From positions 1 to 43,862 of IMG/VR virus record IMGVR_UViG_3300044714_000018: a stretch of DNA of 43,862 bases. The stretch is one strand, 5' to 3'. The notes below the pieces were generated by a model that made no database searches, was not told where the DNA came from, and saw only the letters and a program-made list of their open reading frames with translations. How positions within the stretch are numbered: the stretch's first letter is position 1; each line of letters opens with the position of its first letter. This stretch comes from a virus. This document shows, in pieces, positions 4,277 to 32,766 of the stretch. The translations under genes and the position numbers were made by a program.

Positions 4277-4807
4277 CTACATGAAGTAGTAGAAGTGACC
4301 GTTGAGCACGCTGTTGTTGTTGAAGTTCGCGTCGCTCAGCGCCGCCGACGCCGCGGCGCCCGACGACAAGAGGCTGGCCGTCGTGCCGCCGGCCGGCACG
4401 TTGATGATCGGCACGCCGGCCAGGCTCGCCAGGTTCGAATAGACCGGACAGCTGCCGCCGACGCCCGCCATGGTGGTGTCCGCATTGGCGGTGAAGGGCA
4501 GGCCCGTGATCGTCGCGGCGCCGTTGCTCGCGCCCTTGCTGGTCAGGACCAGCCGGAACTCGCAGAGGATGAGACGCCCGAGTTGGGTATAGGTGCCGAG
4601 CTGGCTCGAGTAAGTGATGCCGGTCGGCGAGCCGTTGAGATTGAGGGCCGGCGTCCAGGTGCCCGTCGCGTAGGTCGGGGCCAGAGCGGCCTTGATGCCG
4701 CCCAGCACGTCGTAGATTTGGCCCTGCTGGAGCACGATCTGTTGCAGGGCATTGATGACGCCCTGCAGATTGGGCGCGCCGATCTGGTCGTGTCCGGCTC
4801 CGCTCAT
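4277..4807 (-). CDS. Tail fibre/tailspike tip-like protein
   Basis: 176 residues. A short helical N-terminus (LQGVINALQQIVLQQGQIYDVLGGIKAAL) could trimerise. After it comes a beta-rich domain beginning GTWTPALNLNGSPTGITYSS and continuing GRLILCEFRLVLTSKG. I recognise the TWTPxLxxxG...GITYSxxxGxYTxxGRL pattern from C-terminal domains of many phage fibres and spikes. The start codon overlaps the stop of the gp10-like gene by 4 bases, so translation is probably coupled. It is likely a virion receptor-contact protein. Confidence 0.65.
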   Translation of the reverse strand: MSGAGHDQIGAPNLQGVINALQQIVLQQGQIYDVLGGIKAALAPTYATGTWTPALNLNGSPTGITYSSQLGTYTQLGRLILCEFRLVLTSKGASNGAATITGLPFTANADTTMAGVGGSCPVYSNLASLAGVPIINVPAGGTTASLLSSGAAASAALSDANFNNNSVLNGHFYYFM

Positions 4808-6894
4808 GGCCGCCTGCCAGCCGGTGCGGCATTATAGCGGATGCGCCCTAAACGCCAGAACACGCCGATATCGGTCGAGTAGATCCTGATCGCGGCGACC
4901 CGACCGCGCGCCCTCACGATGCTGTACGGCGTGACACTGGCGCCCGTCGGCGCCCACACATAGGGGCCGTAGACCGTCGGCGTGTCAGTCGGATAATCGG
5001 CGACCAGGATCTCGTAGAACACGCGGTTGTTGGGCGCCGTCCCGCCTTCGAACGCGAAGTCGGCGAGCACGCGCTCGATGAACGTGAAATACTCGCCGTC
5101 GGCGATCGACATCCAGCCCGACTGGACGAACGGCATCATGGGCTGGCCGTCGGCATCGAAGCCGACCTCGTGCTGCTGGACCAGGCCCGAGGCATCGACC
5201 GCAATCGGCGGACCAAGCGCCGACATATCGACCCCGCAGACACGCGGCAGAACCCCGAGCCCGTAGTCCCACTGGCCCTGTTGGTTCATCTTGACGTAGC
5301 TGTCGCACTCGCCGTTGCCGCCCTGCGACGGGAAGAACCACCAGATCTCGCCGAACCACGAATTGACCCAGCACCAGACCTTGTCCTTCTGCTGCTGGTT
5401 CAGGTTCTCGAAAAAAATATCCCAGACCGGGCAGGCCACGATCTGCGGGCCGCTCGCCCCCATCGTCCAAAAGTTGCCGCCCGTCGTCTCGCCGCCCGTC
5501 ACGACGCTGCTCGACACCCAGTAGGGCACGGCCCCGAGCACACCCGCGCCGCGCGCCGACAGAAGACCGCAGCCCGACCCCTGCTTGTTGAAGCTGAACA
5601 CTAGCGGGAAACCCATGTACGACATCACCCAGACGTCGACATCGGTCCAGATGAAGCCGAAGTTCCCCGCCTGCAGGGCGCCGACGATGCGCGAGCCCGT
5701 GGGGATGCGGAAGCTCCCCGCCTGGTTGGTCGCCTCGGCCTCCCAATCCGTGAAATCCGCGACGTCGCACCACCGCACCAGATTGGGGTCGAGCGTGCTG
5801 CTGCCGAAGGGCGCGCAGCCCCACGCGACCAGGATCTGCGCGGGCATCGCGACAAAGCATCCGTTGACTTGGGTAGGAGGCTCCAAGGCCCCGGGATAGT
5901 TCGACGTGTTGATCGGGATGGCGAGGTTCCCCGTCGCGTTCGGCGGAATCCAGACGTAGATCGGCGAGCCCGTGTAACTGCCGATCAGGTCCTGGCCCCA
6001 GTTGTCGAGGAACCACTGGCGCAGCGGCGCGATCAAACTGGTCCCGCTGGTCTGGCCATAGGGCCCGCTGCCATAGGGTCCGGTGCCGTAGCCGCCCTCG
6101 GCGGTTGCCGACGCCAGACCGGTTGGGATCAGGTATTCGATCGATACATCGCCGCCGTTTTCCAATGTGGTGGCGCCTCCCGAACTCGTGCCGCCTGGCG
6201 TGATCTGGAAAGTGTTGGTGGTGACACTCGACACCGCATAAAGACCGGGGGCGATCGTGATCCCACCGACCGTCGTCGAGAAAAACACCTGGAACGTCTG
6301 GCCATTCGCAAGGCCGTGGTTGGCGAGCATGACTGTGACGACAGTCACGCCGGACCCCGAGGTGTTGTACGACGGCACCGCACCGCCGCTGCTTACGCCC
6401 GCAATCCCGTTCGATCCGGCCGTGATGTCATAGTCGCTGGCGTCGACGATCGTGCCGACCTGATAGAAACCCTGCAGGATGATGCCATCGACCGACACGA
6501 AGGGCTCGATGTAGATCCAGTCGCTGGTGCTGGCGCCGTTGGCGGCATCGGTGACCTTGACGGTCGGCGAGCCCATCGTGGTCGAGAAATTCGGCGCTAT
6601 CGTCGAACTCTTGCGCAATGGCGTGATGTCATAGGTGACGCCACCCGACACCAATTGAAGCCGCTGCTCCGTGCCGGCTGCCACATAGGCATTGCCGGAC
6701 AGATCGGCCCAAGCGTGCATGCCACGTCCGGTTCCGATGAGGGCCGGCGCATTTATGTGGACCCAGCCGCCGAGTTTCTGCAGGAAGCCCTGAAAGAATC
6801 GCACGAGCCCCGACAAGCTCCAGCCGAGCTTGTTGAGCGTCGGCGTCGCCTCTACATCGATGCCAGGTTGAAGCTGGACGGTTTGAAGCGGCAT
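4804..6894 (-). CDS. P22 gp10-like packaged-DNA stabilisation / tail hub protein candidate
   Basis: 696 residues, no signal peptide, beta-rich throughout. Features include an N-terminal MPLQTVQLQPGIDVEATPTLNKLGW segment, which is typical of podoviral proteins that plug the portal, and a central region with aromatic-rich, propeller-like strands (RIVGALQAGNFGFIWTDVDVW, YWVSSSVVTGG, VWCWVNSWFGEIWWF). Length and position between fibre genes match the P22 gp10 / phage stabilisation family. The assignment rests on overall pattern, not on a diagnostic motif. The stop and start share a base with the upstream gene. Confidence 0.55.
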   Translation of the reverse strand: MPLQTVQLQPGIDVEATPTLNKLGWSLSGLVRFFQGFLQKLGGWVHINAPALIGTGRGMHAWADLSGNAYVAAGTEQRLQLVSGGVTYDITPLRKSSTIAPNFSTTMGSPTVKVTDAANGASTSDWIYIEPFVSVDGIILQGFYQVGTIVDASDYDITAGSNGIAGVSSGGAVPSYNTSGSGVTVVTVMLANHGLANGQTFQVFFSTTVGGITIAPGLYAVSSVTTNTFQITPGGTSSGGATTLENGGDVSIEYLIPTGLASATAEGGYGTGPYGSGPYGQTSGTSLIAPLRQWFLDNWGQDLIGSYTGSPIYVWIPPNATGNLAIPINTSNYPGALEPPTQVNGCFVAMPAQILVAWGCAPFGSSTLDPNLVRWCDVADFTDWEAEATNQAGSFRIPTGSRIVGALQAGNFGFIWTDVDVWVMSYMGFPLVFSFNKQGSGCGLLSARGAGVLGAVPYWVSSSVVTGGETTGGNFWTMGASGPQIVACPVWDIFFENLNQQQKDKVWCWVNSWFGEIWWFFPSQGGNGECDSYVKMNQQGQWDYGLGVLPRVCGVDMSALGPPIAVDASGLVQQHEVGFDADGQPMMPFVQSGWMSIADGEYFTFIERVLADFAFEGGTAPNNRVFYEILVADYPTDTPTVYGPYVWAPTGASVTPYSIVRARGRVAAIRIYSTDIGVFWRLGRIRYNAAPAGRRP

Positions 6895-8021
6895 CAGTCG
6901 TAGTACTCATCAATAATGATGATGCCAGAGCCGCCGTTGCCCCCAGCGTTGACTCCTGCTGCTCCACCAAGCCCTCCAGCCCCTATGCCGTATGCATAGC
7001 TTGATGCCGGCGTCGACAGAAGTTTCTCGCAATACGCGCCGGCGCCGCCGCCGGACCCAACAGCCCCAGATGTTCCGTTTCCTGCTCCAGATCCGCCGGA
7101 GCCGGAATTCGTCGCTGCGTTGTCTCCTGCTGAGTTGATCGGGTTGGCCGGCGCACCGCCAAAGATCGAAGCCCCACCGTATCCGCCATAGGTTACCGTT
7201 GCCGCGTTCGCTGCAGCTGATTGACCGGCATTCCCCGGTATAGTGAAATCACATCCGGTCGACGTTCCTCCAATGCCCCCACCGCCGCTTCCGCCACCGC
7301 CACCACCGCCGCCTCCCCCTGCAGTTAGAGAAGCCCCGAAGGTTGAGCTCGCCCCTGGAGACCCAGTGTTCGTTACGGATGCTCCACCACCCCCACCACC
7401 GCCGACCATGCGGACATAGAGGCGGATGGAACCTAGCGGGGTTGTATAGGTTCCACTGCTAGAAGAAATCGTGCACCCAGATGCGCAAATCGTCGTGCGC
7501 GTCGGGTTTGTCGGCATGAACGGTACCGTGTAGGTCGCCCGCGTGCCGATGTTGGTGCCGTCGCTATAAACTGAGAGCGCCACACTCTGAGGTATGGCGA
7601 CGGTATTCCCGGCTGGAGACCCGGACCCATTATTGACGCCGAGCGTCAGCGTGAAGGCACCGGTCGTGTTATTGACAACTGAAAATGATCGGCACAGTGA
7701 TTGCGGCCATAGGATGGTTGCGTTTCCGCTGAGCACGCCCGTGACGACATAGACCGCGTTGCGCGACTGATCGACCGCTCCGCTCGCCGAGGTCAAGATC
7801 GTCGTGCCGCCCGTCGTGCTGACGGGCAGGATTCCAGCGGAGGCTTGGTCGAGTAAATCGAAATCTGTGTTGAGAACGCCGCCCCACGAATTCGTATTGG
7901 CCGGATTTCCTACTACTGGTTTAGCGATGGTCAGACACGTCGTGTAGGTCGATACCTGAGCTGCCGCGGGCCACGTGGCGCAAAGCGCGAACGCAATGGC
8001 GATCAGAAGTCTCTCGAGCAT
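6894..8021 (-). CDS. Fibre-like protein with Sec signal peptide and glycine-rich adhesin tip
   Basis: 375 residues when started at the ATG at 8021. Residues 1-22 form a Sec-type signal (positive MLER, a hydrophobic stretch, ending WPAAA-Q). A fibre-like beta region follows (NTNSWGGVLNTDFDLLDQAS, then AVYVVTGVLSGNATILW). From about residue 205 the protein becomes a long Gly-rich domain with several GGGGGG blocks, closing with GGSGIIIIDEYYD, a common ending for glycine-rich phage adhesin tips. At least eight cysteines occur, unusual for a cytoplasmically assembled fibre. A longer frame to 8075 would bury the signal and is less likely. Confidence 0.7.
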   Translation of the reverse strand: MLERLLIAIAFALCATWPAAAQVSTYTTCLTIAKPVVGNPANTNSWGGVLNTDFDLLDQASAGILPVSTTGGTTILTSASGAVDQSRNAVYVVTGVLSGNATILWPQSLCRSFSVVNNTTGAFTLTLGVNNGSGSPAGNTVAIPQSVALSVYSDGTNIGTRATYTVPFMPTNPTRTTICASGCTISSSSGTYTTPLGSIRLYVRMVGGGGGGGASVTNTGSPGASSTFGASLTAGGGGGGGGGGSGGGGIGGTSTGCDFTIPGNAGQSAAANAATVTYGGYGGASIFGGAPANPINSAGDNAATNSGSGGSGAGNGTSGAVGSGGGAGAYCEKLLSTPASSYAYGIGAGGLGGAAGVNAGGNGGSGIIIIDEYYD

Positions 8022-8026
8022 GACTT

Positions 8027-8782
8027 TTATGTCCTCGGCGGTTGAGCAAGCGGTGTCGGAAGATTCGGCGACCAACCCGCGCCCTGCGAACGTAAGCGCT
8101 GCTCCTGCGTCATTGCGTTGGCCTTTCGCATGTCATATTGCTGCTGCCAGGACTGTGCCAACTTAGGGTCATCTGCTTGCTGGCCGTAATCGCGGAGATA
8201 GCCTGCAACAGTGATCATGCATGCTGCCAGCAGAAGGTCTGGATAGGTCAGGCTGACGTAAGTCGTCGGATTGGTAGCGCTGATCGGGGCTGGCTGGAAC
8301 AGCCCCGTAATTTCTGCAGCGTAGGTGCTGTCGGGTGTCGGCGCCACGACCATCGTCTGGTTGTCGCGCATCGCCCAGTAGCGCCCCATCGAGTCAGCAT
8401 AGTTCGATGTCGGGTTGACGGTCACACTTTCTTGCTGCCAAATCGAATCGATTGTGTCGAGTGATGCCGCGTCGAACTGGATGCGAGTGCCAGCACTAGG
8501 CGTCGCGCCGGCCGGATAGATGAGGGACAACCCCTCTGGGACGATGATGATAACTGAGGCCGCGCTTAAGTTCAGGGATCGCGTTGCGCCGGTGAATGTA
8601 AGACTCGCATCTTGCGCGCGCGTCGCTAGCAGGACGAGATCGCGGTAGATGAGGCATTCTCCACCCTCGACGAATCGCGGCATCATGGTCTGGAAGTCGA
8701 TCGGAAGCGTCGAAAACACGTAAGGAGACGGCGCCTGCACCGCCAGGATCGTCAAGGCATTGGTAAGGTCCGTGTAATCCAC
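8027..8782 (-). CDS. Head-tail adaptor-like structural protein
   Basis: 251 residues starting MDYTDLTNALTILAVQ. The pattern (N-terminal helix, MMPRFVEGGECLIYRDLVLL, beta strands with SVTVNPTSNYADSMGRYWAMRD, then helices in PDLLLAACMITVAGYLRDYGQ and a basic Gln-rich C-terminus) resembles phage adaptor/connector proteins of the gp6 or tail-tubular kind. The gene sits between two fibre-like genes, with a 5-base gap to the next. No catalytic motif is seen. The role is inferred from pattern and neighbours. Confidence 0.5.
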   Translation of the reverse strand: MDYTDLTNALTILAVQAPSPYVFSTLPIDFQTMMPRFVEGGECLIYRDLVLLATRAQDASLTFTGATRSLNLSAASVIIIVPEGLSLIYPAGATPSAGTRIQFDAASLDTIDSIWQQESVTVNPTSNYADSMGRYWAMRDNQTMVVAPTPDSTYAAEITGLFQPAPISATNPTTYVSLTYPDLLLAACMITVAGYLRDYGQQADDPKLAQSWQQQYDMRKANAMTQEQRLRSQGAGWSPNLPTPLAQPPRT

Positions 8783-8796
8783 TATCCGCTTCCCGG

Positions 8797-10326
8797 TTAA
8801 TTCACTCGCACGACGGTGATTGTGCTGTCCTTACTGTTACCGCTCTGATTAGCGATGATATTGCCTGACGTTCCAGCAAGGTCTCGACAGGAGATTTTGA
8901 TGTTTGCAGCGGGTGTCGCCAGCACGCCAGATAGTGAAATTTGTATGTAGTCGCTTCCGGCAAAAAGCGTCGCGGCGCGTGAATCGATGACCGTCGTCCC
9001 GTCCCAAAGTTTGCAGTAGAAATTGCCGCCTCCTGAAGAATCAGTAAGTGTCACACCCCCTGTAGCAAGCCATGTCCCGCTCGTGCCCTGCGCCACGCTC
9101 GGCCCGTCGAAATAATTCGACGTATTGTTCATTGCGACGTTGCCGCCGATGGAATTCGTCAGAGTCGATAGACCACAGGCCGAACCAAGCGTGCATGTCT
9201 GACCCGCCACTGTCGTGCTCGAATTTGTGAGCGACCCGTTGGCGATGTTAGTCAGCGTATTCGAGCCGCCGCTAATGGTTTTATTCGTCAAAGTCTGCGT
9301 GGCGGCAAGGGCGGCAATGGTGTCGGTTGTCACTGGAAGTGTAAGAGTGATGCCAGTCGTCGTAACATTGCCTGGTTGGATTGTGGTTGTGGCACCCGTA
9401 GCGCCGCCGTTGGCCAGGCCCAGTGTTCCTGTGACGCTGGCATTGACACCCAAGATCGGCGTAGAGGTGAACGCAGGGCCAGACCCCGCCAGGACTTGAC
9501 CCGCAACACCTGTGATCGAGATCGCGCCAGCAGCACTGACAGCGACCGGTGCCGTGCCACTCAACGCGCCGCCGTTGGTCGTGGTCGCGCAGGTCGTGCA
9601 CGACACCACTCCAGCCGCACTGACGGCCACGGGAGCGGTGCCCGTGACGGCGCCGCCGCCGCTAGAGGTCACGCAGGTCGGACACGTCAGGTTGCCTGTC
9701 GTCGCGCTGAGCACAAGCGGCGCCGAGGCGCCATCGGCCAGCGTGCCCGTCGTGTTCGGCAGGGTAAGGGTTGGTGACCCGGCAGTCGCCTGCGGCTGGA
9801 TCGTGACGGTGCCCCCGGTATTGCCGAGCATAAGGAGCTTGCCGAGCGTGCCGCTGGCGCCGATCGTCAGGCCGGTGCTGTTCGTGATCGTCGGGGCGCC
9901 CGTGAACAGCGACGTGCCGCTGTAGGTATTATTGCCGCTGATCGTATTGTTGCCATTCAGGAAGCCCAGAACCGCACCGCTGGTCCCCGTGGGCACGCCG
10001 AGATTGATGCGCGCCGTCGCGGGAGCCGTGAGCTCGCTCAAATTATTGGATCCCCGCATCGGCGTGTAGCCGAGCGCGGTCACGACGTCGCTGCTCAGCA
10101 GCGTGATCGCGCCGACGCGCCCCATGAAGGACAGTACGGGCCCATTGGCTTGCAACTGCGTCACCGAGACGCCGTAGGTCTGCACGCCGGCCACTGCCAT
10201 CGGCACGATGCCGGTCGACGGCAGGGCGCCGCTGGTCCAGGCGGGCAACTGGCTGATCGGCTGCGCGCCTGCATACGCGCTCCACAACGCGACGACAGCG
10301 GTGAGGATGATGCGCGTCAACTTCAT
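8797..10326 (-). CDS. Tail fibre-like repeat protein with Sec signal peptide
   Basis: 509 residues. The ATG at 10326 overlaps the upstream stop (ATGA). Residues 1-22 are a clear signal peptide (MKLTR, a hydrophobic stretch, AYAGA-Q). The body is Gly/Thr/Ala/Asn-rich fibre repeat: GYTPMRGSNNLSELT, NNTISGNNTYSGTSLF, two near-copies of GTAPVAVSAAG, and TQTLTNKTISGGSNTLTNI, all typical of phage tail fibres. Two Cys-x-x-Cys pairs (TCPTC, SCTTC) lie about 25 residues apart. The combination of a fibre body with an export signal is unusual. Confidence 0.7.
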   Translation of the reverse strand: MKLTRIILTAVVALWSAYAGAQPISQLPAWTSGALPSTGIVPMAVAGVQTYGVSVTQLQANGPVLSFMGRVGAITLLSSDVVTALGYTPMRGSNNLSELTAPATARINLGVPTGTSGAVLGFLNGNNTISGNNTYSGTSLFTGAPTITNSTGLTIGASGTLGKLLMLGNTGGTVTIQPQATAGSPTLTLPNTTGTLADGASAPLVLSATTGNLTCPTCVTSSGGGAVTGTAPVAVSAAGVVSCTTCATTTNGGALSGTAPVAVSAAGAISITGVAGQVLAGSGPAFTSTPILGVNASVTGTLGLANGGATGATTTIQPGNVTTTGITLTLPVTTDTIAALAATQTLTNKTISGGSNTLTNIANGSLTNSSTTVAGQTCTLGSACGLSTLTNSIGGNVAMNNTSNYFDGPSVAQGTSGTWLATGGVTLTDSSGGGNFYCKLWDGTTVIDSRAATLFAGSDYIQISLSGVLATPAANIKISCRDLAGTSGNIIANQSGNSKDSTITVVRVN

Positions 10327-10664
10327 GTCTCGCTCTCTATGATGCCGCCCTGCTCGGTCTCGATCGGCGAGCCGCCTTCGGTCTCGATCGCCGGGTTGTT
10401 GGCTGCCGTGAAGTTCTCGGGCCGCGGGTTGTAGCGCGGGATCGGATCGGGCGGCAGGATCACGGGCTTGAGCTGCGCTTGCGGGATATCGAGGCAATGC
10501 TGGCACTTCAGAAAGCCGGTCCACTGCAGCGCAGGACCGTAGTATTCCATCTGCTTCTTGAGGTCGTCGAGATTGTACCACTCGCCGCAATCATCACAGA
10601 CGCCGAACGCCGACGGCGCTCGCGGCCGCGTCCGTGCCCGCCCTGCGATGTCGCCCCAGCCCAT
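10323..10664 (-). CDS. Small zinc-ribbon-like phage structural-region protein
   Basis: 113 residues. Two Cys-x2-Cys knuckles (VCDDC near 22-26 and KCQHC near 53-57) surround the segment WYNLDDLKKQMEYYG, followed by a Pro-rich stretch (VILPPDPIPRYNPRPE). I recognise this from alphaproteobacterial phages, where it sits beside head-tail genes; it probably binds one zinc ion. The C-terminus has a short acidic duplication (AIETEGGSPIETEQGG). It lies 3 bases after the connector gene. Function unknown. Confidence 0.65.
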   Translation of the reverse strand: MGWGDIAGRARTRPRAPSAFGVCDDCGEWYNLDDLKKQMEYYGPALQWTGFLKCQHCLDIPQAQLKPVILPPDPIPRYNPRPENFTAANNPAIETEGGSPIETEQGGIIESET

Positions 10665-10667
10665 CGC

Positions 10668-11408
10668 CTACATCCTAAAATAGCCCGATACATCGGGCAT
10701 GATCTCGATTGGCGCGGTCTCCTGATCGTTCGTCACTGCGAGGTCCCAGGACTCCTTGGCTTCGACCTTCGCGGCTTCGTACATCGCGGGCGCGAACTTG
10801 CGCGCCAGGCGCTTCGCCATCTCGTCGGCGAGCGCGTCGAGAAAGCGGTACGGGACGTCGGCGATCTGCCCGACCGCCGCCGTCGCGTCCTGAATGCGCG
10901 ACAGGAAGTAGTAGTTGACCTCGTTGACGGGATAGCTGGCCTGCGGCACCTGATAGAAGGTGATCTGCGGCACGCTTTCCAATCGCTGGAACCAGAACTG
11001 TGAGGGATAGCCCTGCACGGCCTTGTTCGGCAGCGCCGCGTACTGAGATCGCGACAGGCTGATCAGGATGCGATCGGTGTTTATGCCCGAGCCGCCGCCG
11101 TTGATCGTCGTGAAATAGACGTCCAGCATGCTGACGATGTTCGGCGAGATGTTCGAGACCCCGGTGCCCGCCGTATACGTCGCCTGCCCGGCAACAAGCT
11201 GGATGGTTCCGAGCTGGACTTCCCACAGGTTGACGCCGCAGTTGCCGAAGCCCTGCAGGGCGAAGTTCATCGAGCGCCGGAACGACGCCCAGTGATGGCG
11301 GGTCAGCGCGGTCGGCCGGATGCCGATGCGGTCGAACGCCTCGACGCCGATTTCCGCCGTCGCAGGATTCCAGTTGTAGGTGCCGCTTGTGGTGTTCGGC
11401 GTCGCCAT
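10668..11408 (-). CDS. Head-tail connector protein, P22 gp4-like
   Basis: 246 residues. The order of elements fits podoviral connector / head-completion proteins: helical N-terminus (AEIGVEAFDRIGIRP), the LVAGQATYTAGTGV strand, ILISLSRSQYAALPNKAVQGYPSQFWFQ, ITFYQVPQ, and the helical DVPYRFLDALADEMAKRLARKFAP. In this family the protein docks under the portal after packaging. Its place between capsid and tail genes agrees. The family call is from pattern memory and was not searched. Confidence 0.6.
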   Translation of the reverse strand: MATPNTTSGTYNWNPATAEIGVEAFDRIGIRPTALTRHHWASFRRSMNFALQGFGNCGVNLWEVQLGTIQLVAGQATYTAGTGVSNISPNIVSMLDVYFTTINGGGSGINTDRILISLSRSQYAALPNKAVQGYPSQFWFQRLESVPQITFYQVPQASYPVNEVNYYFLSRIQDATAAVGQIADVPYRFLDALADEMAKRLARKFAPAMYEAAKVEAKESWDLAVTNDQETAPIEIMPDVSGYFRM

Positions 11409-11426
11409 CGGACAGCCCTCAGACGA

Positions 11427-11669
11427 TCAGTCTTTGCCGATGCCGGGATACTTCCGGTGGACGGCGGCGCGAATGCGGCTCTGCTCGCTCGGCGAGGCGT
11501 TCTGCGCGCCGCGCGCCAGCGCATTGCGCGCCCGGTTCGGCGTGTCGATCGGATAGCGCTCGCCGGGCAAAGCAAAATCCTTGCCCGGCAGCGCGTGCCG
11601 TTCCTCTGCCGTGAGACGTCCGCCGTGGGCCCTGGCTTCGGCACCGCCGGACCCGCGATCAGTCTCGCT
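11427..11669 (-). CDS. Frame-shifted C-terminal domain of the GG-motif protein (no start codon of its own)
   Basis: 80 codons continue in the +1 frame from the end of the 139-residue gene to TGA at 11427. The peptide holds HGGRLTAEERHALPGKDFALPG, RYPIDTPNRARNALARGAQ and RIRAAVHRKYPGIG, a small domain I recognise from many phage proteins. This frame contains no ATG, GTG or TTG between an in-frame TGA near 11788 and the domain. It can therefore be made only as an extension of the upstream gene, by +1 slippage at GGC-AAA-AAG (A5 at 11669-11673), or because the sequence has one extra A there. Confidence 0.6.
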   Translation of the reverse strand, partial: SETDRGSGGAEARAHGGRLTAEERHALPGKDFALPGERYPIDTPNRARNALARGAQNASPSEQSRIRAAVHRKYPGIGKD

Positions 11670-12078
11670 TTTTGCCCATCGAGGACGCCGGCCCCTCGCC
11701 GTGCGATTCGACCTCGAGCTGGTCCTTCTCGTAGGGCAGGCTCGACATCTTATGGGCCTCGCTGAGCGGCGAGTGCTCGGCGCCCTTCAGCCGGCCGCCG
11801 CGCGCTCGCTTGTCGAGGCGATGCCCGGGATGCTTGCCGTGCACCGCACCGCCGGACTTCTTCTTGACCGGCAGCTTCTCGTGGTCGCGCTTCTTGCCGT
11901 CGTGCTTGTGCGGATGCAGCATCTTCTCGCCCTCGCTCTCTTCCTCGCGCTTGATCGAGGCGCCGGTGTGCTCCTCGGGGCGCTCTTCCATGTCGGCGAT
12001 CCCGCCGCCGCGCGCGCGATGCATGCGGTGCTCGCCCTTGTGGTGCATCCGCTCTTCGTGATCCTTGTGGCCCTTCAT
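11659..12078 (-). CDS. Lys/His/Glu-rich GG-motif protein (N-terminal part of a split reading frame)
   Basis: 139 residues, extremely hydrophilic, with about a third of residues Lys, Arg or His. It contains RARGGGIADM, KKKSGGAVHGK and KRARGGRLKG. The stretch GGAVxGKxPxHRLDK followed by RGGR is nearly repeated in the protein at 24812-25855. No membrane segment or enzymatic motif is seen; it is probably disordered and nucleic-acid or virion associated. The conserved domain expected after a RGGRL motif is present downstream in the +1 frame, so the annotated stop at 11659 may not be the true end. Confidence 0.7.
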   Translation of the reverse strand: MKGHKDHEERMHHKGEHRMHRARGGGIADMEERPEEHTGASIKREEESEGEKMLHPHKHDGKKRDHEKLPVKKKSGGAVHGKHPGHRLDKRARGGRLKGAEHSPLSEAHKMSSLPYEKDQLEVESHGEGPASSMGKKRD

Positions 12079-12120
12079 GTCGATCTCCTGTGGTCTGGCG
12101 ACCCTTCGTAGTTTCTTCTT

Positions 12121-12816
12121 CTAGTTGTAGATGCCGCCCCCGGCGGGGACGGACTGCATCTGGACGCTGTTGCCGGCGCCCGCCGTCTCTGAATTCAGCT
12201 TGAGGCGGAATGCGAACACCGTGGTCTGCATCTGGTAGGTCAGGCTGGTCGTCTTGCCCGACACCACCGCGTCATCGAAGCACACCGGCGGCACGTTGCT
12301 TTGCGGCTCGGTCGAGCCCCCGATCGGATTGTTCGCGATGACGTTGGGGTCGTCCATCGTCTCTTCGAGCGAGTAGTTGACGACGCCCGTCACGTTGAAC
12401 CGCATGCCGACGTTGGTGGGGTTGCGCTGCTGGTCGAGGATGAACCATTGAGTCGACGCCACGCCGCTCGTGCCGACCTCGACATTTGCCGCCACCGCGC
12501 CGCTGGCGCTGACCTTCGTCACGGTCTTGAAGTCGTTGATGGTCTGGTAGGTGCCGGCGTTCGGCCCCGCGAATGCCTCGCTGATCGCAATGCCGAAGGT
12601 GTTGGTGCCGAAGATCGTGTACGTGATCCCGGTGTCGTTGCCCGTGTTCGTGAGCAGGACGCGGCGCGCGACATCCAGCGTCGCGATGCCGCCGGCAACC
12701 GTCGCCCCGTTGAGGACGAGATTGCCGGCGGCTGCGAGTGCCTGGCTCAGCGCGATGTTCGTCGCGGACGATGCGGCGAGCGGCCCGAGCGTTACGGTGG
12801 TCGGGTTGCCGGACAT
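12121..12816 (-). CDS. Structural protein, beta-rich, unknown
   Basis: 231 residues, no signal peptide. Small-residue-rich beta sequence (TTVTLGPLAASSATNIALSQAL, VLLTNTGNDTGITYTIFGTN, GAVAANVEVGTSGVASTQWFIL). The N-terminal part resembles a jelly-roll or Ig-like virion decoration domain. A GGAG ribosome site lies just before the ATG. It follows the secreted structural protein in the capsid-proximal gene set and is probably a virion component. I do not recognise the family. Confidence 0.6.
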   Translation of the reverse strand: MSGNPTTVTLGPLAASSATNIALSQALAAAGNLVLNGATVAGGIATLDVARRVLLTNTGNDTGITYTIFGTNTFGIAISEAFAGPNAGTYQTINDFKTVTKVSASGAVAANVEVGTSGVASTQWFILDQQRNPTNVGMRFNVTGVVNYSLEETMDDPNVIANNPIGGSTEPQSNVPPVCFDDAVVSGKTTSLTYQMQTTVFAFRLKLNSETAGAGNSVQMQSVPAGGGIYN

Positions 12817-12835
12817 GGCTCTCCGCGGTCACCGC

Positions 12836-14305
12836 CTACTTGAGGGCGTCGAAGGTGGCCTGGATGCACACGTTGTGCGCGGCCGCCGACGCGGTGGCGC
12901 TCGTGATCATCACGCCGGTGTTGCCCTTCTGGCCGACCGGATCGACGGTCACGGTGAGGTCGGCGCCGCCCGTGGTATCGCGCCAGTTGGCGTTCGCCGA
13001 GACCGGGTTGAAGGTCGTCACGGTCGGCGACGCAAACATCGGCGGGTCGAACTCGAACATCGCCGTCTGGGCCTGCGCTGCCTGGCTGACCTGGCAGAAC
13101 GAGCCGCCGAGGATCTGCTGGGCCGGCGCGGTGCCCGAGAAGAAGGTCTTCTTGTAGAAGCGCCGTGCCTTGGCCAAGCTGATCGTGCCCGGGTCGGCCA
13201 CGAAGGCCGTGGCCACGGAACCGCGTTCGACCTTCCACGCGCCGAGTTGGAAGATCGCCGAGGCGGTCGCCGTGATCTGGGTCTGCGAGCTCGTGCACAC
13301 CGCGTTGTTGCCCTGCCACGAGCCTGCGGTCTGCTGGAAGGTCGAGCCGCAGGCCGCCGTCACGGTCAGGATGCCGCCGACGTTGAACGGAGTCAGGGTC
13401 CAGGTGCCCGCGGTGTCGGCCGGGATGGTGAACGTGCACTTCGTCCACACCCCAGGGGTGGCCGAGGTCGTGCAGTTCTGGACGTAGGAGCGGTTCGGCG
13501 TGGCGTTCTGCAGGGCAACACCGTAGGTCGCCGACGCGATGCTCGACATCGCCCAGCCCGAGACCGTGACGGGCGTCCCACCGCTGGCGTTGCCAAAGCC
13601 GAGATCGGCCATGTCCTCGCCTTCGATGAACTGCTGGTACGGCAGGATCAGGGCCGCCGGCACGGTCGTGCTCGGCGTGGCGTTCATCGCGGTCGCGAGA
13701 ACCTTCGGCGTGAGCGTGAACTGGGCCGGCGCGGTGACCTGCTTGCTGGTCGGGTTGCCGGCGCTCGAGGTCGAGGTGACGAAGCTCGCCATCCAGCGGT
13801 CGGCCATGCGGACCACGCTGCCCGATGTGAGCGTCGCCGAAGCGCCTTCGTTCTGCTGGTCGATCGCAAAGTCGCCGTTCTGCAGGATGTTGGAACCCGC
13901 CTGGCTGCCGGCGCTCGCCGCGAGGCTGAGTGCCTGATAGTTGGTGCCGTCGCTGATCAGACGGATGCCCTGGCCGGCCGGCAGCGAGTAGGTCGCCGCG
14001 CCGCCGATGGTCGAGGTCGTCGAGGTGATCGCGAGCGGGAACGCGGTCTGGTTCTGGAAGTCGGCATACCAGCCGGGCATGAACAGCCCCGAGGCCGCCG
14101 CGATGCCGGCCTGCGGCAGGGTCACGGAGACCGCAGCGGCGTTGCTGAAGGTCAACAGCTTCGACTGGTCGCTGTTGACGACGGTGTAGCTGGTGCCCGT
14201 CTGGGCGTTGGGAAACTCGATCGGGACCTGGGCGTGCGCGGCGAGCGGCGCGGCCAGCAGGCCGAGCGCGGTCAGGGCGCCGAGGATCTTGGACTTGAGC
14301 GTCAT
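12836..14305 (-). CDS. Structural/fibre-like protein with Sec signal peptide
   Basis: 489 residues. Residues 1-25 are a textbook Sec signal (MTLKSK, a hydrophobic stretch of Ala/Leu, AAHA-Q). The mature part starts with a fibre-like beta region (YTVVNSDQSKLLTFSNAAAVSVTLPQAG), with a carbohydrate-binding-like jelly-roll segment around residues 140-350 (NILQNGDFAIDQQNEG, ADRWMASFV, YVQNCTTSATPGVWTKCTFTIPADTAGTW). NILxNGDF/W...RW is typical of phage fibre carbohydrate-binding domains. Many cysteines are present. It lies between two cytoplasmic-type structural genes. Confidence 0.7.
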   Translation of the reverse strand: MTLKSKILGALTALGLLAAPLAAHAQVPIEFPNAQTGTSYTVVNSDQSKLLTFSNAAAVSVTLPQAGIAAASGLFMPGWYADFQNQTAFPLAITSTTSTIGGAATYSLPAGQGIRLISDGTNYQALSLAASAGSQAGSNILQNGDFAIDQQNEGASATLTSGSVVRMADRWMASFVTSTSSAGNPTSKQVTAPAQFTLTPKVLATAMNATPSTTVPAALILPYQQFIEGEDMADLGFGNASGGTPVTVSGWAMSSIASATYGVALQNATPNRSYVQNCTTSATPGVWTKCTFTIPADTAGTWTLTPFNVGGILTVTAACGSTFQQTAGSWQGNNAVCTSSQTQITATASAIFQLGAWKVERGSVATAFVADPGTISLAKARRFYKKTFFSGTAPAQQILGGSFCQVSQAAQAQTAMFEFDPPMFASPTVTTFNPVSANANWRDTTGGADLTVTVDPVGQKGNTGVMITSATASAAAHNVCIQATFDALK

Positions 14306-15593: not shown

Positions 15594-16193
15594 CTATGCG
15601 GCCTCCCTACTGATAGCGGCCGTGCACGTGCGGATCACGTGGCACTTGAAACGGGGGAAGACCGGATCAAACACCGGCACAGCGGCGAAGCGGCCGTGCA
15701 TCCGAATTTCGGCATGACGCCGAACCGCAACGGCATCTTCGATACGATCGAACCGCCCGAGTGCGATAGTGCGATAGTTGACCGTAATAAACGCGAACCA
15801 CTTCTTGCGGCTGGCGTCCCACGAAACGCCTTTGTGACTCGACGTGTTGTTGCGCTGAACGCCGCGGTTCATCGTGTTCTGCGCCTTCGTGGCCAATCGA
15901 AGATTGTCGATTCGATCGTCCGAACGAATGCGGTTGTGGTGGTCGACTTCGAACGGCTTCGGGGGCATCTCGCCGTGGATGTAGAGCCATACGAGATGCG
16001 CTGCCTGATATCGGCGCCCGTTCACGTTGAGGTAGCGATAGCCGTTGGTGTTGAGATAGCCAGCGACTTGACCGGCGTGCTTGCGGTTCCACGCGCGCGT
16101 GCGATCCTCCCTCAGTCGCCACGTAAACAGCCCACTGGCCGCGTCGTAGTGAAGCGCCGACTTCAGTTCTTGCTGGGTAAGATGAGGAAACAC
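15594..16193 (-). CDS. HNH homing endonuclease with AP2-type DNA-binding domain
   Basis: 199 residues from the GTG at 16193; a TTG at 16208 overlapping the capsid stop is the alternative. The N-terminus LTQQELKSALHYDAASGLFTW is typical of phage HNH proteins. HNH core: AAHLVWLYIHG (His66), VDHHNRIRSDDRIDNLRLAT (residues 83-102). A C-terminal AP2-like domain spans 121-165 (KGVSWDASRKKWFAFI...ALGRFDRIEDAV). It is inserted right behind the major capsid gene. Base composition is less GC-rich than its neighbours, in line with a mobile gene. Such enzymes nick or cut a cognate site and spread by homing. Confidence 0.85.
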   Translation of the reverse strand: MFPHLTQQELKSALHYDAASGLFTWRLREDRTRAWNRKHAGQVAGYLNTNGYRYLNVNGRRYQAAHLVWLYIHGEMPPKPFEVDHHNRIRSDDRIDNLRLATKAQNTMNRGVQRNNTSSHKGVSWDASRKKWFAFITVNYRTIALGRFDRIEDAVAVRRHAEIRMHGRFAAVPVFDPVFPRFKCHVIRTCTAAISREAA

Positions 16194-17892: not shown

Positions 17893-18243
17893 CTATTTTT
17901 GTTCGCTTATTTGGTCCGCTTTCTGGACGCCGGGCCGCAGGCTCCGCAGCCGCCCAGCCGCTTGCCTGGTCTTGATCTGCGTATCCACGACCTCGACGAG
18001 CGTGTTGACCATGGTCTGCTGCTCCGCCGTCAGCCGTCCGCTGCGCCACGCTGGCGAGTGCCCCATGTCCTCGATGATCCACCACAGGTGATCGCCGCCG
18101 CGGCCGTGCAGGTCAGGCATTTCGACGGCCTGGTCGAGCGTCGCGACTTGGTTCATGAAGTGCTTCGCGTTCAACGCCAGTTCGTAGCTGTCGTGCGCGG
18201 CCCAAGCGAGCGCGCCGGCGCAGAGAAGGCAGACGAAGCGCAT
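17893..18243 (-). CDS. Small secreted protein with Sec signal peptide
   Basis: 116 residues. The ATG shares its A with the preceding TGA (TGATG). Residues 1-16 form a signal peptide (MRF, hydrophobic stretch, ALAWA). The mature part is mostly helical (LNAKHFMNQVATLDQAVEMPDL and TMVNTLVEVVDTQIKTRQAAGRL), with a His/Trp-rich middle (GRGGDHLWWIIEDMGHSPAW). I do not recognise the family. It sits in the membrane cassette between scaffold and capsid genes, so a periplasmic role in envelope modification or lysis is possible. Starts at 18249 or 18246 are also available. Confidence 0.6.
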   Translation of the reverse strand: MRFVCLLCAGALAWAAHDSYELALNAKHFMNQVATLDQAVEMPDLHGRGGDHLWWIIEDMGHSPAWRSGRLTAEQQTMVNTLVEVVDTQIKTRQAAGRLRSLRPGVQKADQISEQK

Positions 18244-18317
18244 CACCATTCGTTGAAAAAGCCGTCGCCGGGGTCGCCGAACCAGCGCTTGAGCCAGCGG
18301 CGGAAGCGGTTAAGCAT
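18243..18317 (-). CDS. 24-residue basic/aromatic amphipathic peptide (possible gene)
   Basis: This short frame (MLNRFRRWLKRWFGDPGD..., 24 residues) overlaps the end of the upstream gene by 3 bases and couples to the next gene through TGATG. The first 13 residues have alternating Arg/Lys and Trp/Phe/Leu and would form a basic amphipathic helix able to bind membranes. Its reality rests on the two couplings and composition. It has no clear ribosome site. Confidence 0.4.
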   Translation of the reverse strand: MLNRFRRWLKRWFGDPGDGFFNEW

Positions 18318-19374
18318 CGCGTGGGCCGAGAGCCGCCAGCCCGAGCGCCAGGAACGGCGCGCACTGCGGCAACGGATACCAGATCGCGTAGAGCCCGGCT
18401 AGCGCTACCCATGCGGCCAGTGCCCGCGGGTTCACGCTCGAGATCAGCGGTGGCACGGCGAACAACGCGACCGCCAGGAACATCCCGAGCGGCCCGAGCG
18501 CCAGCAGCGATTCGGCCCACAGGTTATGGCTGTGCGCGGCGCCCATGCCGAGACCTTCCCAGGTGGGGTCGATCGCGGCGAGGGTAGGGCGCGCGGCGAG
18601 CACAGCATCGTTGAACTCGCCCCAGCCGGCGCCGTGCCAAGCCGTGCCGTCCTTCATCGGCAGCGCTAGGCCGATGACCTCGATCAGCATCGCTCGCGAG
18701 TGTGCCGATGGCCACGGCAGGATGAACATGGCCGCGGTCGCCGCGAACGGCACCATAAAGGCCAAGCCAGCAGCCAGCGCGGTCAGCGGCCGCCACCGAT
18801 GCCAGAGCGCCCACAGCACCAGCGCGCCGGCGGCGAGCAGCCACGCGCCTTTGCTGCCCGACACCGCGACCAACGCCGCCCCCGTCAGCAGTGCCGGCCA
18901 GCCGTCGAGCATGACCAGCCCGAATCCGGCGAACGCCGTCCAGTCTGACCAGTCGTGCTCGGGATGAGCGGCGACCAGCGTCCATGCGACGATGCCGGCA
19001 CCCGATGCGACGGCGCCCCAGGTGAGCCAGCGCCGGTCGGCCGACGCCATGAGCGCGGTTAGCACCGCCACGGACAGCCACCAGAAGCCGCCTTGACCAA
19101 CCTGGGGCGCGCCGAACCAGGATCGCGCGGGGAACGCCAACAACGGGGACAGCGCGAAGGTTGGGAGAGCGATGGAGAGCGGTAGTAGAGCTAGCGGCGC
19201 ACCGAATGTTTCACGTGGAACGACGGACAACCACACTGCCGCAATTGCTCCCGCGCCGTACAGCGCCACGGCCGCCGGCTCGGCCTTTACCCAGATGCCG
19301 AGCGCGAACGCCGGCAGGGTAAGGAACCACAAGCACAGAGAGGCCGTCGCCAGCAGGGCGGCGCCACGCGCCAT
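18310..19374 (-). CDS. O-antigen ligase / polymerase-like integral membrane protein (WaaL/Wzy superfamily)
   Basis: 354 residues, about ten predicted membrane segments. Near the C-terminus it has H283-N284-x9-G294-x-x-G297 (within HSHNLWAESLLALGPLG), an exact match to the WaaL signature H[NSQ]-x9-Gxx[GTY]. A large periplasmic-type loop before it contains DGTAWHGAGWGEFNDAV. Known members join O-antigen or other glycans to lipid A or proteins in the inner membrane. The ATG couples to a 36-residue membrane peptide (TGATG). A phage copy could alter the host surface or block superinfection; this role is inferred. Confidence 0.75.
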   Translation of the reverse strand: MARGAALLATASLCLWFLTLPAFALGIWVKAEPAAVALYGAGAIAAVWLSVVPRETFGAPLALLPLSIALPTFALSPLLAFPARSWFGAPQVGQGGFWWLSVAVLTALMASADRRWLTWGAVASGAGIVAWTLVAAHPEHDWSDWTAFAGFGLVMLDGWPALLTGAALVAVSGSKGAWLLAAGALVLWALWHRWRPLTALAAGLAFMVPFAATAAMFILPWPSAHSRAMLIEVIGLALPMKDGTAWHGAGWGEFNDAVLAARPTLAAIDPTWEGLGMGAAHSHNLWAESLLALGPLGMFLAVALFAVPPLISSVNPRALAAWVALAGLYAIWYPLPQCAPFLALGLAALGPRDA

Positions 19375-30086: not shown

Positions 30087-31055
30087 TTATACCTCACCCT
30101 CACCGGGAATGCCAGCACAAGCGACTTCCTTGACGGCAATCCTGACGTGCTCATCGACGCGCGACAGGAACAACCGCAGCCCGTGCTCGGCCACGTACTC
30201 ATCGACCGCCCGCCGCGCGCCGGCGAAGGCGCCGTAGTCGTCCACGATCAGGATGCCGCCGGGCGCCAGTCGTGGGAATAAAGTCTCCATTTCGTGCTTG
30301 GTCGAGCGGTAGAAGTCCGTGTCCAAGCGCAGCAGGGCGATGCGCTCGGGCGCCCAGCCGGGCAGCGTTTCCTCGACGGGGCCCTGCGCGTACTTGAACA
30401 GGTGCCTCGGATAGCCGGTGGCGTTGCAGGCTTCCATGACCTCGGCCAGCGTGCCCTTCATGTCGCCCGGCGCGAGCGGCGAGCCGTCGTAGATCATATC
30501 GTCGGGCTGCGTCGGCGCCGTCATGCCGGCGAAGGTGTCGAACAGCCAGATGCGGCGCGCGTCGACGCCGAGTCGCAGCAGGGTGCGCGCGATCATGACC
30601 TCGGACGCGCCCTTGTAGACGCCGCACTCCACGAAGTCGCCAGGGATGTCGTTGGCGATCACGTGCTCGACCGCGCGCATCAGCGCCACGCCGGCGGCGA
30701 GACCTTGCGCTGCGGCCCGGCTGGCGACGGCATAGATCATCTTCTCGTCGGCTGTAACGTCGTGCTCAGCCTGCGCTGCTGTGGTGCGCGGGAACACGCG
30801 GGCGTCGAGTTCGGCGGCATCGACCAAGGCTCGGCGGTGGTCGCCAATTGCCACCAGTGCGCGGATGCGCTCGACGCGCGCCCAGGAGTTCGCCTTGAGG
30901 CGCTTCGATCGGATGTAGGGAAACACATCCCTGCCGCGCTGGTGGATCGCCGTGATTTCGTTGTGGTCGAGGCTCGCAAAGCCGTGCAGCGCGAGCGCGC
31001 GCCGCAGACGAAAGCGCCCCGACAAATAGAGGTTGTTCAGCGTGATCGCGGTCAT
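30087..31055 (-). CDS. TylF/MycF-family O-methyltransferase
   Basis: 322 residues, ATG overlapping the previous stop. N-terminal ~95 residues are extra. The methyltransferase core has DFVECGVYKGASEVMIA (SAM loop, 141-156), WLFDTFAGMT (170-179), RLDTDFY (243-249) and LIVDDYGAF (269-277). The D-x-D and DD residues are the Mg2+ and catalytic elements typical of macrocin-type sugar O-methyltransferases. It sits next to a glycosyltransferase-like gene, which suggests methylation of a sugar on a host or virion glycan (inference). Confidence 0.85.
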   Translation of the reverse strand: MTAITLNNLYLSGRFRLRRALALHGFASLDHNEITAIHQRGRDVFPYIRSKRLKANSWARVERIRALVAIGDHRRALVDAAELDARVFPRTTAAQAEHDVTADEKMIYAVASRAAAQGLAAGVALMRAVEHVIANDIPGDFVECGVYKGASEVMIARTLLRLGVDARRIWLFDTFAGMTAPTQPDDMIYDGSPLAPGDMKGTLAEVMEACNATGYPRHLFKYAQGPVEETLPGWAPERIALLRLDTDFYRSTKHEMETLFPRLAPGGILIVDDYGAFAGARRAVDEYVAEHGLRLFLSRVDEHVRIAVKEVACAGIPGEGEV

Positions 31056-31231
31056 CCGTTCTGCCCTTCTAGTAGCCTGCGATGCCGCATCACGGCGAGC
31101 CGCCTGATCCTGTCGTCACGGGCAGCCGTGCGGCGCTGGTCCTCGATCGCGCGGCGGATGTGCGCCGGCGAGTGCCAGCGGCCGTGAGCCGCGTGGTACA
31201 AGCTGAGCACGCAGAGCTTGAGCCAGCTCAT
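31052..31231 (-). CDS. 59-residue small basic protein
   Basis: The ATG overlaps the glycosyltransferase stop and the stop overlaps the methyltransferase start, both ATGA. Sequence MSWLKLCVLSLYHAAHGRWHSPAHIRRAIEDQRRTAARDDRIRRL... is Arg/His-rich and helical. Its place between two glycan-type enzymes suggests a linked role, but nothing more can be said. Confidence 0.55.
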   Translation of the reverse strand: MSWLKLCVLSLYHAAHGRWHSPAHIRRAIEDQRRTAARDDRIRRLAVMRHRRLLEGQNG

Positions 31232-32766
31232 GGCGTCGCCAGCAGCGCGCGAAGGTCGCTGACATCGCGCGGCAGGATGCCGATCATCTGATCCGCGATT
31301 CCGTCGGGCATGAAGGCGCGCTCGTAGAGCTCGGCGGCTTGGTCATGGTGACCATGCTTCTCGGCGAGCCGCGCTCGCCAGAGACAGTAGTGCCAACCCT
31401 CGATGATCTCGGGCAATTCACGCACGTTCGCTGAACACCACGGCCGCAGCATGAGCCGCCCAGGCTCCCACACCAAGCCGCTGTCCGCCAAGACCTCGCG
31501 CTCGTAGAAGCTCGCGACCTCCGTGAGCGCCGCTAGCGCGCGCCACGCGATCTCGCGGCGGTCGGCTGGCGCGCCGCGCGGTGGCCCATGCGGCTTGCGC
31601 AGCGCCCGTCGCACGAGCGCATGCAAACGCGGCACCCGCACAAGCGCCGCGACCGCCGCGGCCTTGAGGGATCGCGGACCACGCCAGCGCGAGATACGGC
31701 CGACCGGCGGCAGCGCGTGGCCGGCCATCCACTCGGCGGCCAGCTGACGCGCGGTCTCGAGCTTGCGGGCGTCCCGCAGCCCGCGCCAGCGCGCAAAGAC
31801 ATCGGCCGCCTCGATCAGCCGCTTGATCGGCTCGACGCCGACTGGCGACGTCTGGTCGGACCTGATAGCGCCGATCGGGTGCTCGATCGGCGCGCCACGC
31901 ACATGGGCCTCCTTAACGAAGAAATCCGCCCAACAGCCGAAATGCCGCAGCGCGTCGTCATCCATGCGCCACGGCCGGTAGTAGGCCCACAGCAGCTTCA
32001 GCAGCGGTTCCGCGCTCAGGTAGGGCGTGCTCTCGTAAGCGATCATCTCGAACTGGTCGAGCGGGCACAGGTCATCGCCCATCGCGATCTTGCCGGGCCA
32101 GAACGCGATGGCGTGCGTGGCGATGGTGTGGTGGATATAGCCGGCGCCGGGCACGGGCCGCAGGTAGATCTCGGGGTGCTGGATCGCGCGCGGCGCGCCG
32201 GCCAGCATCGTCATGTTCATCGGATGCAGATGGCGCAGGATCAGGTTGTCGACGTCGCGCTGCGGCAAGCTGATCGGCTCGCCGCCCGGAAACTCTTCGC
32301 CGATGGTCTCGAGCGTCACCTGGATGCCGAGCCCGATGATGGCGAGCGCCGTCGGCTTGTCGCGGTAGAGCGGCATCAGGAGCCGCGACCAGCGCAGAAG
32401 CGTGCCGGCCGGCAGGATGTGGTCGGGCGCGACGAACATGATCGCGGCGCCGTCGGCCTTCGCGTAGTCCGCGGCCCAGCGCCACGCCTGCATGTGGTTA
32501 TGCGGCGCGCCGTCACCGGGCTTGAAGGGGACGAACATCACGTCGACGATGTCGTGCAGCCGGTCGAACAGCGGGGACGCCTCAAGCGCGGCCTGGTCCT
32601 CGGGCGTCGTGTGGATTTGGAACGTGACGTCGTAGGGCGCGGCAATCGCCTCGATGTTGCCGGTGCCCCACAGGCTGCGCAGCGCCAGGCGCAGAAAGCG
32701 CTCGACGAACGGCGCGCCCCAGATGACGCAGGCGAGGTGGATCTTGAGCGGCGAGGTGTTGGTCAC
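31228..32766 (-). CDS. Glycosyltransferase-like protein
   Basis: 512 residues, GTG coupled to the previous stop. The N-terminal half is Rossmann/GT-A-like: IHLACVIWGAPFVERFLRLALRSL, DVTFQIHTTPEDQAAL, AIMFVAPDHILPAGTLLRWSRLL (the APDHIL may sit where a DxD is found), and further MNMTMLAGAPRAIQ, FWPGKIAMGDDLCPL. The C-terminal part is helical, TPR-like (WHYCLWRARLAEKHGHHDQAAELYERAF). The next enzymes are a methyltransferase and, 12 kb on, an O-antigen-ligase-like protein. The family call is by fold pattern only. Confidence 0.55.
   Translation of the reverse strand: MTNTSPLKIHLACVIWGAPFVERFLRLALRSLWGTGNIEAIAAPYDVTFQIHTTPEDQAALEASPLFDRLHDIVDVMFVPFKPGDGAPHNHMQAWRWAADYAKADGAAIMFVAPDHILPAGTLLRWSRLLMPLYRDKPTALAIIGLGIQVTLETIGEEFPGGEPISLPQRDVDNLILRHLHPMNMTMLAGAPRAIQHPEIYLRPVPGAGYIHHTIATHAIAFWPGKIAMGDDLCPLDQFEMIAYESTPYLSAEPLLKLLWAYYRPWRMDDDALRHFGCWADFFVKEAHVRGAPIEHPIGAIRSDQTSPVGVEPIKRLIEAADVFARWRGLRDARKLETARQLAAEWMAGHALPPVGRISRWRGPRSLKAAAVAALVRVPRLHALVRRALRKPHGPPRGAPADRREIAWRALAALTEVASFYEREVLADSGLVWEPGRLMLRPWCSANVRELPEIIEGWHYCLWRARLAEKHGHHDQAAELYERAFMPDGIADQMIGILPRDVSDLRALLATP

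Follow-up and report, generated by a model that had tools for sequence, protein, structure and literature searches.

Predicted Sec signal peptides on three putative tail fibers of an SU10-like podovirus and a possible periplasmic route to the virion

The IMG/VR viral contig IMGVR_UViG_3300044714_000018 (43,862 bases, hereafter the window) is from an SU10-like podovirus, whose tail module includes three minus-strand genes, here named A (6894-8021), B (8797-10326), and C (12836-14305). All three almost certainly begin with signal peptides of the Sec/signal-peptidase-I type, and export and cleavage of their products are predicted. On balance, we favor the reading that the three products serve as host-binding tail fibers and reach the particle via the periplasm. 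Homology identifies them as fibers or spikes; what is new is an export signal combined with paired cysteines. Export and disulfide bonding had been proposed in an earlier note on this DNA, and that proposal is well supported by predicted signals across unrelated bodies, by a predicted cleavage site that coincides with the usual fiber N-terminus, and by cysteine pairs that track the signal.

Signal peptides of A, B, and C

The three reading frames are present where the earlier note had placed them, and their parts are as follows.

6894..8021, minus: gene A, signal peptide, tail-fiber anchor domain, and glycine-rich tip, 375 amino acids (phrog_863/phrog_12796 tail fiber; anchor-domain profile)
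7959..8021, minus: A signal peptide, residues 1-21, predicted cleavage between AAA and Q (sequence, scorer)
7533..7958, minus: A anchor domain ('NSWG..LNT') with cysteines C29 and C110 (homology to N-termini of signal-less phage tail proteins and spikes)
8797..10326, minus: gene B, signal peptide, fiber repeats with two CxxC motifs, and predicted TNF/C1q-like lectin tip, 509 amino acids
10264..10326, minus: B signal peptide, residues 1-21, predicted cleavage between AGA and Q (sequence, scorer)
8800..9180, minus: B tip domain at the C-terminus, residues 383-509 (AlphaFold2 pLDDT 92, TNF/C1q-like fold, two invariant cysteines)
12836..14305, minus: gene C, signal peptide, N-terminal module, and NGDF-type carbohydrate-binding-like module, 489 amino acids
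14231..14305, minus: C signal peptide, residues 1-25, predicted cleavage between AHA and Q (sequence, scorer)
13886..14230, minus: C N-terminal module (similarity to the L126 fiber, E 2e-15, and weakly to the A anchor domain, E 0.006)
12959..13891, minus: C body module (NILQNGDF...DRW), common to marine-phage tail fibers

The N-termini read MLERLLIAIAFALCATWPAAA in A, MKLTRIILTAVVALWSAYAGA in B, and MTLKSKILGALTALGLLAAPLAAHA in C, followed after the predicted cut by QVST, QPIS, and QVPI, respectively. B and C have the basic N-terminus, hydrophobic stretch, and A-x-A-Q end that had been described for all three genes; A has the core and the AxA end, but the net charge of its n-region is 0 (one Arg, one Glu). 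Signal-peptide prediction, suggested earlier as a check, was carried out with a home-made scorer that combines a weight matrix from 31 E. coli signal peptides with hydrophobicity and charge. It called all three, with scores of 12.6 for C, 9.9 for B, and 6.6 for A, the last being lowest because of the Arg and Glu in its n-region. Since the E. coli control signals (n = 31) scored 12.3-19.6 save one, C stands at the lower edge of this range, B slightly under it, and A lowest. Shuffles matched to each gene's own body composition reached the gene's score in 4/5000 trials for C and in 12/5000 for both B and A, and shuffles of the gene's own first 35 residues did so in 18/5000 (C), 102/5000 (B), and 523/5000 (A). 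Sixteen structural-type genes of the window were scored, and a signal was called in A, B, and C only, the other 13 giving no call. A lipoprotein identity is ruled out, as the lipobox [LVI][ASTVI][GAS]C is absent from the signal ends of all three.

That these N-termini are functionless hydrophobic stretches arising by chance, or that the true starts lie downstream, is barely credible. The 10% of shuffles of A's first 35 residues that reach A's score would fit such an explanation, as would the downstream starts of signal-less homologs; on the other side, in A and C the stretch from signal to body is free of in-frame start codons (in B it has only TTG codons, which are unlikely starts), signals are retained across deep divergence, and cysteine pairing tracks the signal. 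A wrong-start-codon artifact is accordingly rejected for A and C. It is also very unlikely that the hydrophobic N-terminus is an uncleaved signal-anchor that tethers the fiber to the inner membrane until lysis, in the manner of a SAR endolysin. SAR domains are well known in phages (PMC6116005), and the neutral n-region of A, together with a cysteine inside its core, is a poorer fit to a classical signal. However, AxA ends followed by Q are found in A, B, C, and nearly all relatives, the predicted cut coincides exactly with the point where signal-less homologs begin, and none of the three genes has the weak Gly/Ala-rich helix of the SAR type.

A signal ahead of an otherwise signal-less fiber type

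A profile of the A anchor domain, run against the fetched loci, gathered 38 proteins; the IMG/VR loci compared here are all uncultivated or provirus contigs. Thirty-seven of these proteins start 1-15 residues ahead of the domain and lack a signal, and A is the sole member with an N-terminal extension, the 24 amino acids of which constitute the signal peptide. Syntenic orthologs in L002, L003, and L122, where gene order matches that of the window, are likewise signal-less. The earlier note had reckoned that homologs starting past the hydrophobic region would refute export; literally, all 37 do so, yet export is not refuted, and the better reading is that the predicted signal of A is an addition to an ancestrally signal-less, presumably cytoplasmic fiber protein.

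The anchor domain, the only full-length one of its type in the window, was modeled by AlphaFold2 at pLDDT 89. In a viral structure library it matches tail proteins, several of which include the intramolecular-chaperone domain that tailspikes typically have; its PDB matches are weak and for the most part spikes and baseplate proteins of phages (Solidus gp83, Z 7.4; CBA120 TSP4, Z 6.5).

Signals on unrelated fiber bodies

The last 127 residues of B form a mobile tip domain that is present in 42 IMG/VR loci. After clustering at 60% identity, 20 clusters have a complete 5' end, and 18 of these start with a signal, on bodies that mostly differ; the two signal-less exceptions are short fibers of the podoviruses L116 and L125. 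The AlphaFold2 model of the tip (pLDDT 92) has as its nearest folds the TNF/C1q-like lectins BC2L-C and PLTL (Z 12.5-12.7, VIA-align), with Z 12.7 and a root-mean-square deviation of 2.5 over 118 residues for BC2L-C, and the predicted domain is a jelly-roll of the TNF/C1q-like family. Two of its cysteines are invariant across the family and, by usual TNF topology, would lie in the neighboring strands D and G.

B itself has no PHROG or Pfam match of its own and is assigned as a fiber by the tip that it shares with fibers in tail modules. Genes with this tip come after baseplate genes in the Mu-like phage L009, after a long gene of the host-specificity type in L099, and between adaptors in L122, which matches the place of B in the window. 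As a single-sequence query B returned zero relatives in the phage collection, and the tip returned zero matches in genome contigs. The motif TLTNKTIS, formerly taken for a repeat, has a single occurrence, in B. In two distant phages, a B-type fiber is adjoined by a signal-bearing protein of ~237 amino acids with 6 cysteines (L122:10375-11088 and L113:10398-11120), weakly GDSL-hydrolase-like in L122.

The N-terminal module of C also occurs in a signal-bearing fiber of L126 that has the tip of B as well, and its body module is common to the tail fibers of marine phages; as a single-sequence query, C returned zero relatives in viral contigs. Recognized tail domains on other signal-bearing relatives include Collar (L113) and a pectate-lyase-like domain (L134). 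Rows of small signal-bearing genes, mostly cysteine-containing, were seen inside the structural module at L010:1137-2472 and L134:8569-13419. The claim that three cases in one operon exceed chance holds by way of these relatives, not by the three cases alone.

Cysteine parity

Each of the three genes had been said to carry several cysteines, and this is borne out: A has 7 (1 within the signal), B has 8, and C has 6, which leaves even mature counts of 6, 8, and 6. Parity was then compared across the proteins of all loci fetched up to that point, clustered at 40% identity; the counts exclude C, for which the gene caller chose a longer antisense frame, and A, which falls in a signal-less cluster. 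Clusters with a signal (38) contain 1.66% cysteine and those without (556) contain 0.50%. The cysteine number is even in 29/34 with a signal (85%) versus 139/335 without (41%; Fisher 6.5e-7), and in the low-charge, fiber-like subset in 22/25 versus 49/122, a result that is independent of the exact cleavage site. Even cysteine numbers in signal-bearing proteins support folding in an oxidizing compartment, and it is quite likely, as far as sequence can tell, that A, B, and C are disulfide-bonded outside the cytoplasm.

An independent tailspike family

The L132 gene at 6797-7813 has a tailspike head-binding domain directly behind its signal (PDB 7eeq, E 8e-6). This domain is encoded by 80 IMG/VR loci, in which the unique proteins comprise 36 signal-bearing and 41 signal-less spikes; L144 (without an in-frame start codon) and L179 were classed as signal-bearing by eye, and L220 is doubtful among the signal-less. 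Signal-less spikes mostly start with MAGTI or MAGSI, and the predicted cut in the signal-bearing ones, between A and AGTI, falls at the same residue. Two cysteines are found in the head-binding domain of 32/36 spikes with a signal versus 0/41 without (Fisher 1.3e-17, kinship ignored). When a signal is present, the domain has either no cysteines or a pair of them, which belongs to one of three mutually exclusive position classes, (23,55), (39,66), or (13,16). The best spike tree holds 6 changes of signal state, at least 4 of them on well-supported branches, and the signal is kept throughout a 17-member clade.

All eight spikes on isolate-type IMG contigs (L144, L164, L165, L182, L202, L208, L209, and L212) bear a signal, that of L144 by eye, and spikes on metagenome contigs are mixed; a link with host or lifestyle is possible. 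A plasmid search returned one remote prophage spike, from Rhizobium tumorigenes, whose annotated start leaves no room for a signal.

In all 16 near-full-size signal-bearing genomes of 39-44 kb examined, there is one head-binding domain each, on the signal-bearing copy. This bears on the possibility that A, B, and C are exported without entering the virion and act late as periplasmic or surface adhesins, or as decoys that mask receptors, catch debris to spare progeny, or alter the lysogen surface. T5 Llp, which blocks a receptor from inside, speaks for such a role. Phage proteins exported for such roles include lambda Lom, which has a signal peptide and is encoded between tail-fiber genes (PMC12309495). 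The clusters of small signal-bearing genes in L010 and L134 would also fit, as would the several signal-bearing spikes on isolate-type contigs that are probably proviruses. Nevertheless, we regard a non-virion role as rather doubtful. The mature proteins would retain virion-anchoring N-terminal domains (head-binding, A anchor) that are useless to a decoy, and for this reason the host-surface decoration raised as an alternative in the earlier note also appears less likely. A virion role is favored because anchor domains are intact behind the signal, because A, B, and C lie within the tail operon, and because the signal-bearing spike is the sole copy in those 16 genomes.

The tail module and other genes of the window

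The order of transcription is C, a 231-amino-acid gene, a 139-amino-acid gene, adaptor 1, a 113-amino-acid CxxC gene, B, adaptor 2, A, and the phrog_3287 protein; capsid, portal, and terminase are encoded farther away in the window. A, B, and C are therefore placed amid SU10-type adaptors, the stabilization protein, and capsid genes. The remaining features of the module are listed below; both adaptors exceed the cut-off for Pfam SU10_adaptor.

4804..6894, minus: phrog_3287 virion structural ('stabilization') protein, tail-module marker
8027..8782, minus: SU10-type adaptor protein 2
10323..10664, minus: CxxC-type 113-amino-acid protein between the adaptors, with an equivalent position in L002 and L122
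10668..11408, minus: SU10-type adaptor protein 1

Elsewhere in the window, an HNH homing-type endonuclease with a sub-threshold AP2 domain adjoins the capsid gene (15597-16193, minus); endonuclease-like genes occur in L002 and L003 too, elsewhere in the module. A 116-amino-acid protein with the hydrophobic N-terminus MRFVCLLCAGALAWA and no family match (17893-18249, minus) is possibly a lysis or spanin component. A 354-amino-acid multi-pass membrane protein, which by eye resembles the O-antigen ligase/polymerase type and has no Pfam match, is encoded at 18310-19374 (minus). A TylF-type sugar O-methyltransferase (30087-31055, minus; PF05711, E 2e-41) lies close to a 512-amino-acid gene that is glycosyltransferase-like by eye (31228-32766), and the right end of the contig (~43600-43862, plus) holds near-identical pentapeptide-type DNA repeats (L-S-G-S-[ND] like).

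A proposed route of assembly

From the signals, the fiber body right behind them, and the paired cysteines, we infer cleavage, periplasmic folding, and disulfides. A, B, and C would be made late, together with the tail operon, and exported by the host Sec machinery; the signal peptidase cut would leave a mature N-terminus where an ordinary fiber begins. The mature fiber, presumably trimeric, would fold in the oxidizing periplasm and form disulfides there, and the building of heads and tails would proceed in the cytoplasm in the ordinary way. Once lysis opens the inner membrane, fibers would meet particles and dock via their intact anchor domains. Incorporation of A, B, and C into virions appears fairly probable from their sequences and, given incorporation, docking at or after lysis is very likely; joining the particle at lysis would be the likeliest route. 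More generally, we narrowly prefer a model of compartment-split assembly, in which heads and tails are cytoplasmic, fibers are secreted, cleaved, and oxidized in the periplasm, and the two meet at lysis only, with the arrangement having arisen or disappeared repeatedly across several phage groups and disulfides following later. Docking at lysis and the benefit of export have less support than cleavage, periplasmic folding, and disulfides; the benefit could lie in stable, protease-resistant receptor-binding tips or in tips shielded from cytoplasmic interference.

A variant, which we consider unlikely, is that the proteins are cleaved and exported but dock before lysis (e.g., on inner-membrane-bound tails), or that only a cytoplasmic fraction, left by inefficient export or made from a second start, enters virions. 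The weak signal of A would fit partial export, an ATG at the end of the signal in L132 and L141 could yield a signal-less form, and two-start phage proteins are known (Ms6 LysA; PMC6116005). Yet an internal start codon is absent from A and C, and the cysteine pairs imply that the oxidized form is the useful one.

Several observations weigh against export of virion fibers. The signal of A is weak and by score alone may be chance, so that its relatives decide. Signal-bearing genes are rare among relatives with the stabilization protein (14/802 plus-strand genes, some of them false positives), and in L122 a signal-less A stands next to signal-bearing fibers. The signal states of two fibers within one phage are linked only in part (12/26 versus 5/27, p 0.04); the idea that all fibers of one phage switch together is only partly true, given this value and the mixed state of L122. 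Four signal-bearing spikes lack the cysteine pair, and a kinship-corrected test of signal versus cysteine pair, with about 3 comparisons in the same and 0 in the opposite direction (p 0.25), points toward an association but has too few pairs to decide. The structural genes of the cultured relatives phiM5, for which a particle proteome exists, and OH have no signals, and the expectation of signal-bearing virion proteins in these two phages was rejected. No virion proteome of a signal-bearing phage was found. Finally, keeping fibers and particles in separate compartments until lysis would be an unusual constraint.

Relation to known systems

Standard teaching places the whole assembly of tailed phages in the cytoplasm, with fibers attached before lysis. 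If the proposed route is true, disulfide-bonded receptor-binding proteins, late docking at lysis, and dependence on host Sec and Dsb would be added to phage assembly. It would also provide a sequence rule, a signal directly ahead of an anchor domain together with even, paired cysteines, by which to recognize receptor-binding proteins that may pass for secreted bacterial proteins in automated annotation. For laboratory expression of such fibers, the periplasm and oxidizing conditions would then be suited. We found no report of exported tail fibers in the open-access literature, subscription journals being outside the search; related papers cover lysis proteins, lambda Lom, and spanins.

Export of phage proteins is known for lysis (PMC6116005). 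Like fOg44 Lys44, SAR endolysins, and the T4 antiholin RI, the genes described here would use the Sec route late in infection; unlike these lysis enzymes and regulators, A, B, and C are predicted fiber proteins. Lambda Lom and T5 Llp are likewise exported, and Lom is encoded amid tail-fiber genes, but they are an outer-membrane barrel or a lipoprotein, lack a fiber body or anchor domain, and are not part of the virion. The filamentous-phage coat proteins pIII and pVIII of M13 also enter or pass through the inner membrane before they are assembled into virions; in contrast to A, B, and C, they are membrane-anchored and assembled during extrusion, in a different kind of virus. The tip of B resembles the sugar-binding lectins BC2L-C and PLTL in predicted fold, and differs from them in its low identity (12-18%), its place on a phage fiber, and its invariant cysteine pair. 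Close counterparts are also the tail fibers and tailspikes of Caudoviricetes (HTVC027P gp69, DSL-LC04 WJZ48130, and 7eeq-type spikes), which share the anchor domains, the place in the tail operon, and tips of a receptor-binding type. Known fibers of this class begin at the anchor domain, contain few cysteines, and are taken as cytoplasmic, whereas those described here would add a Sec signal and paired cysteines.

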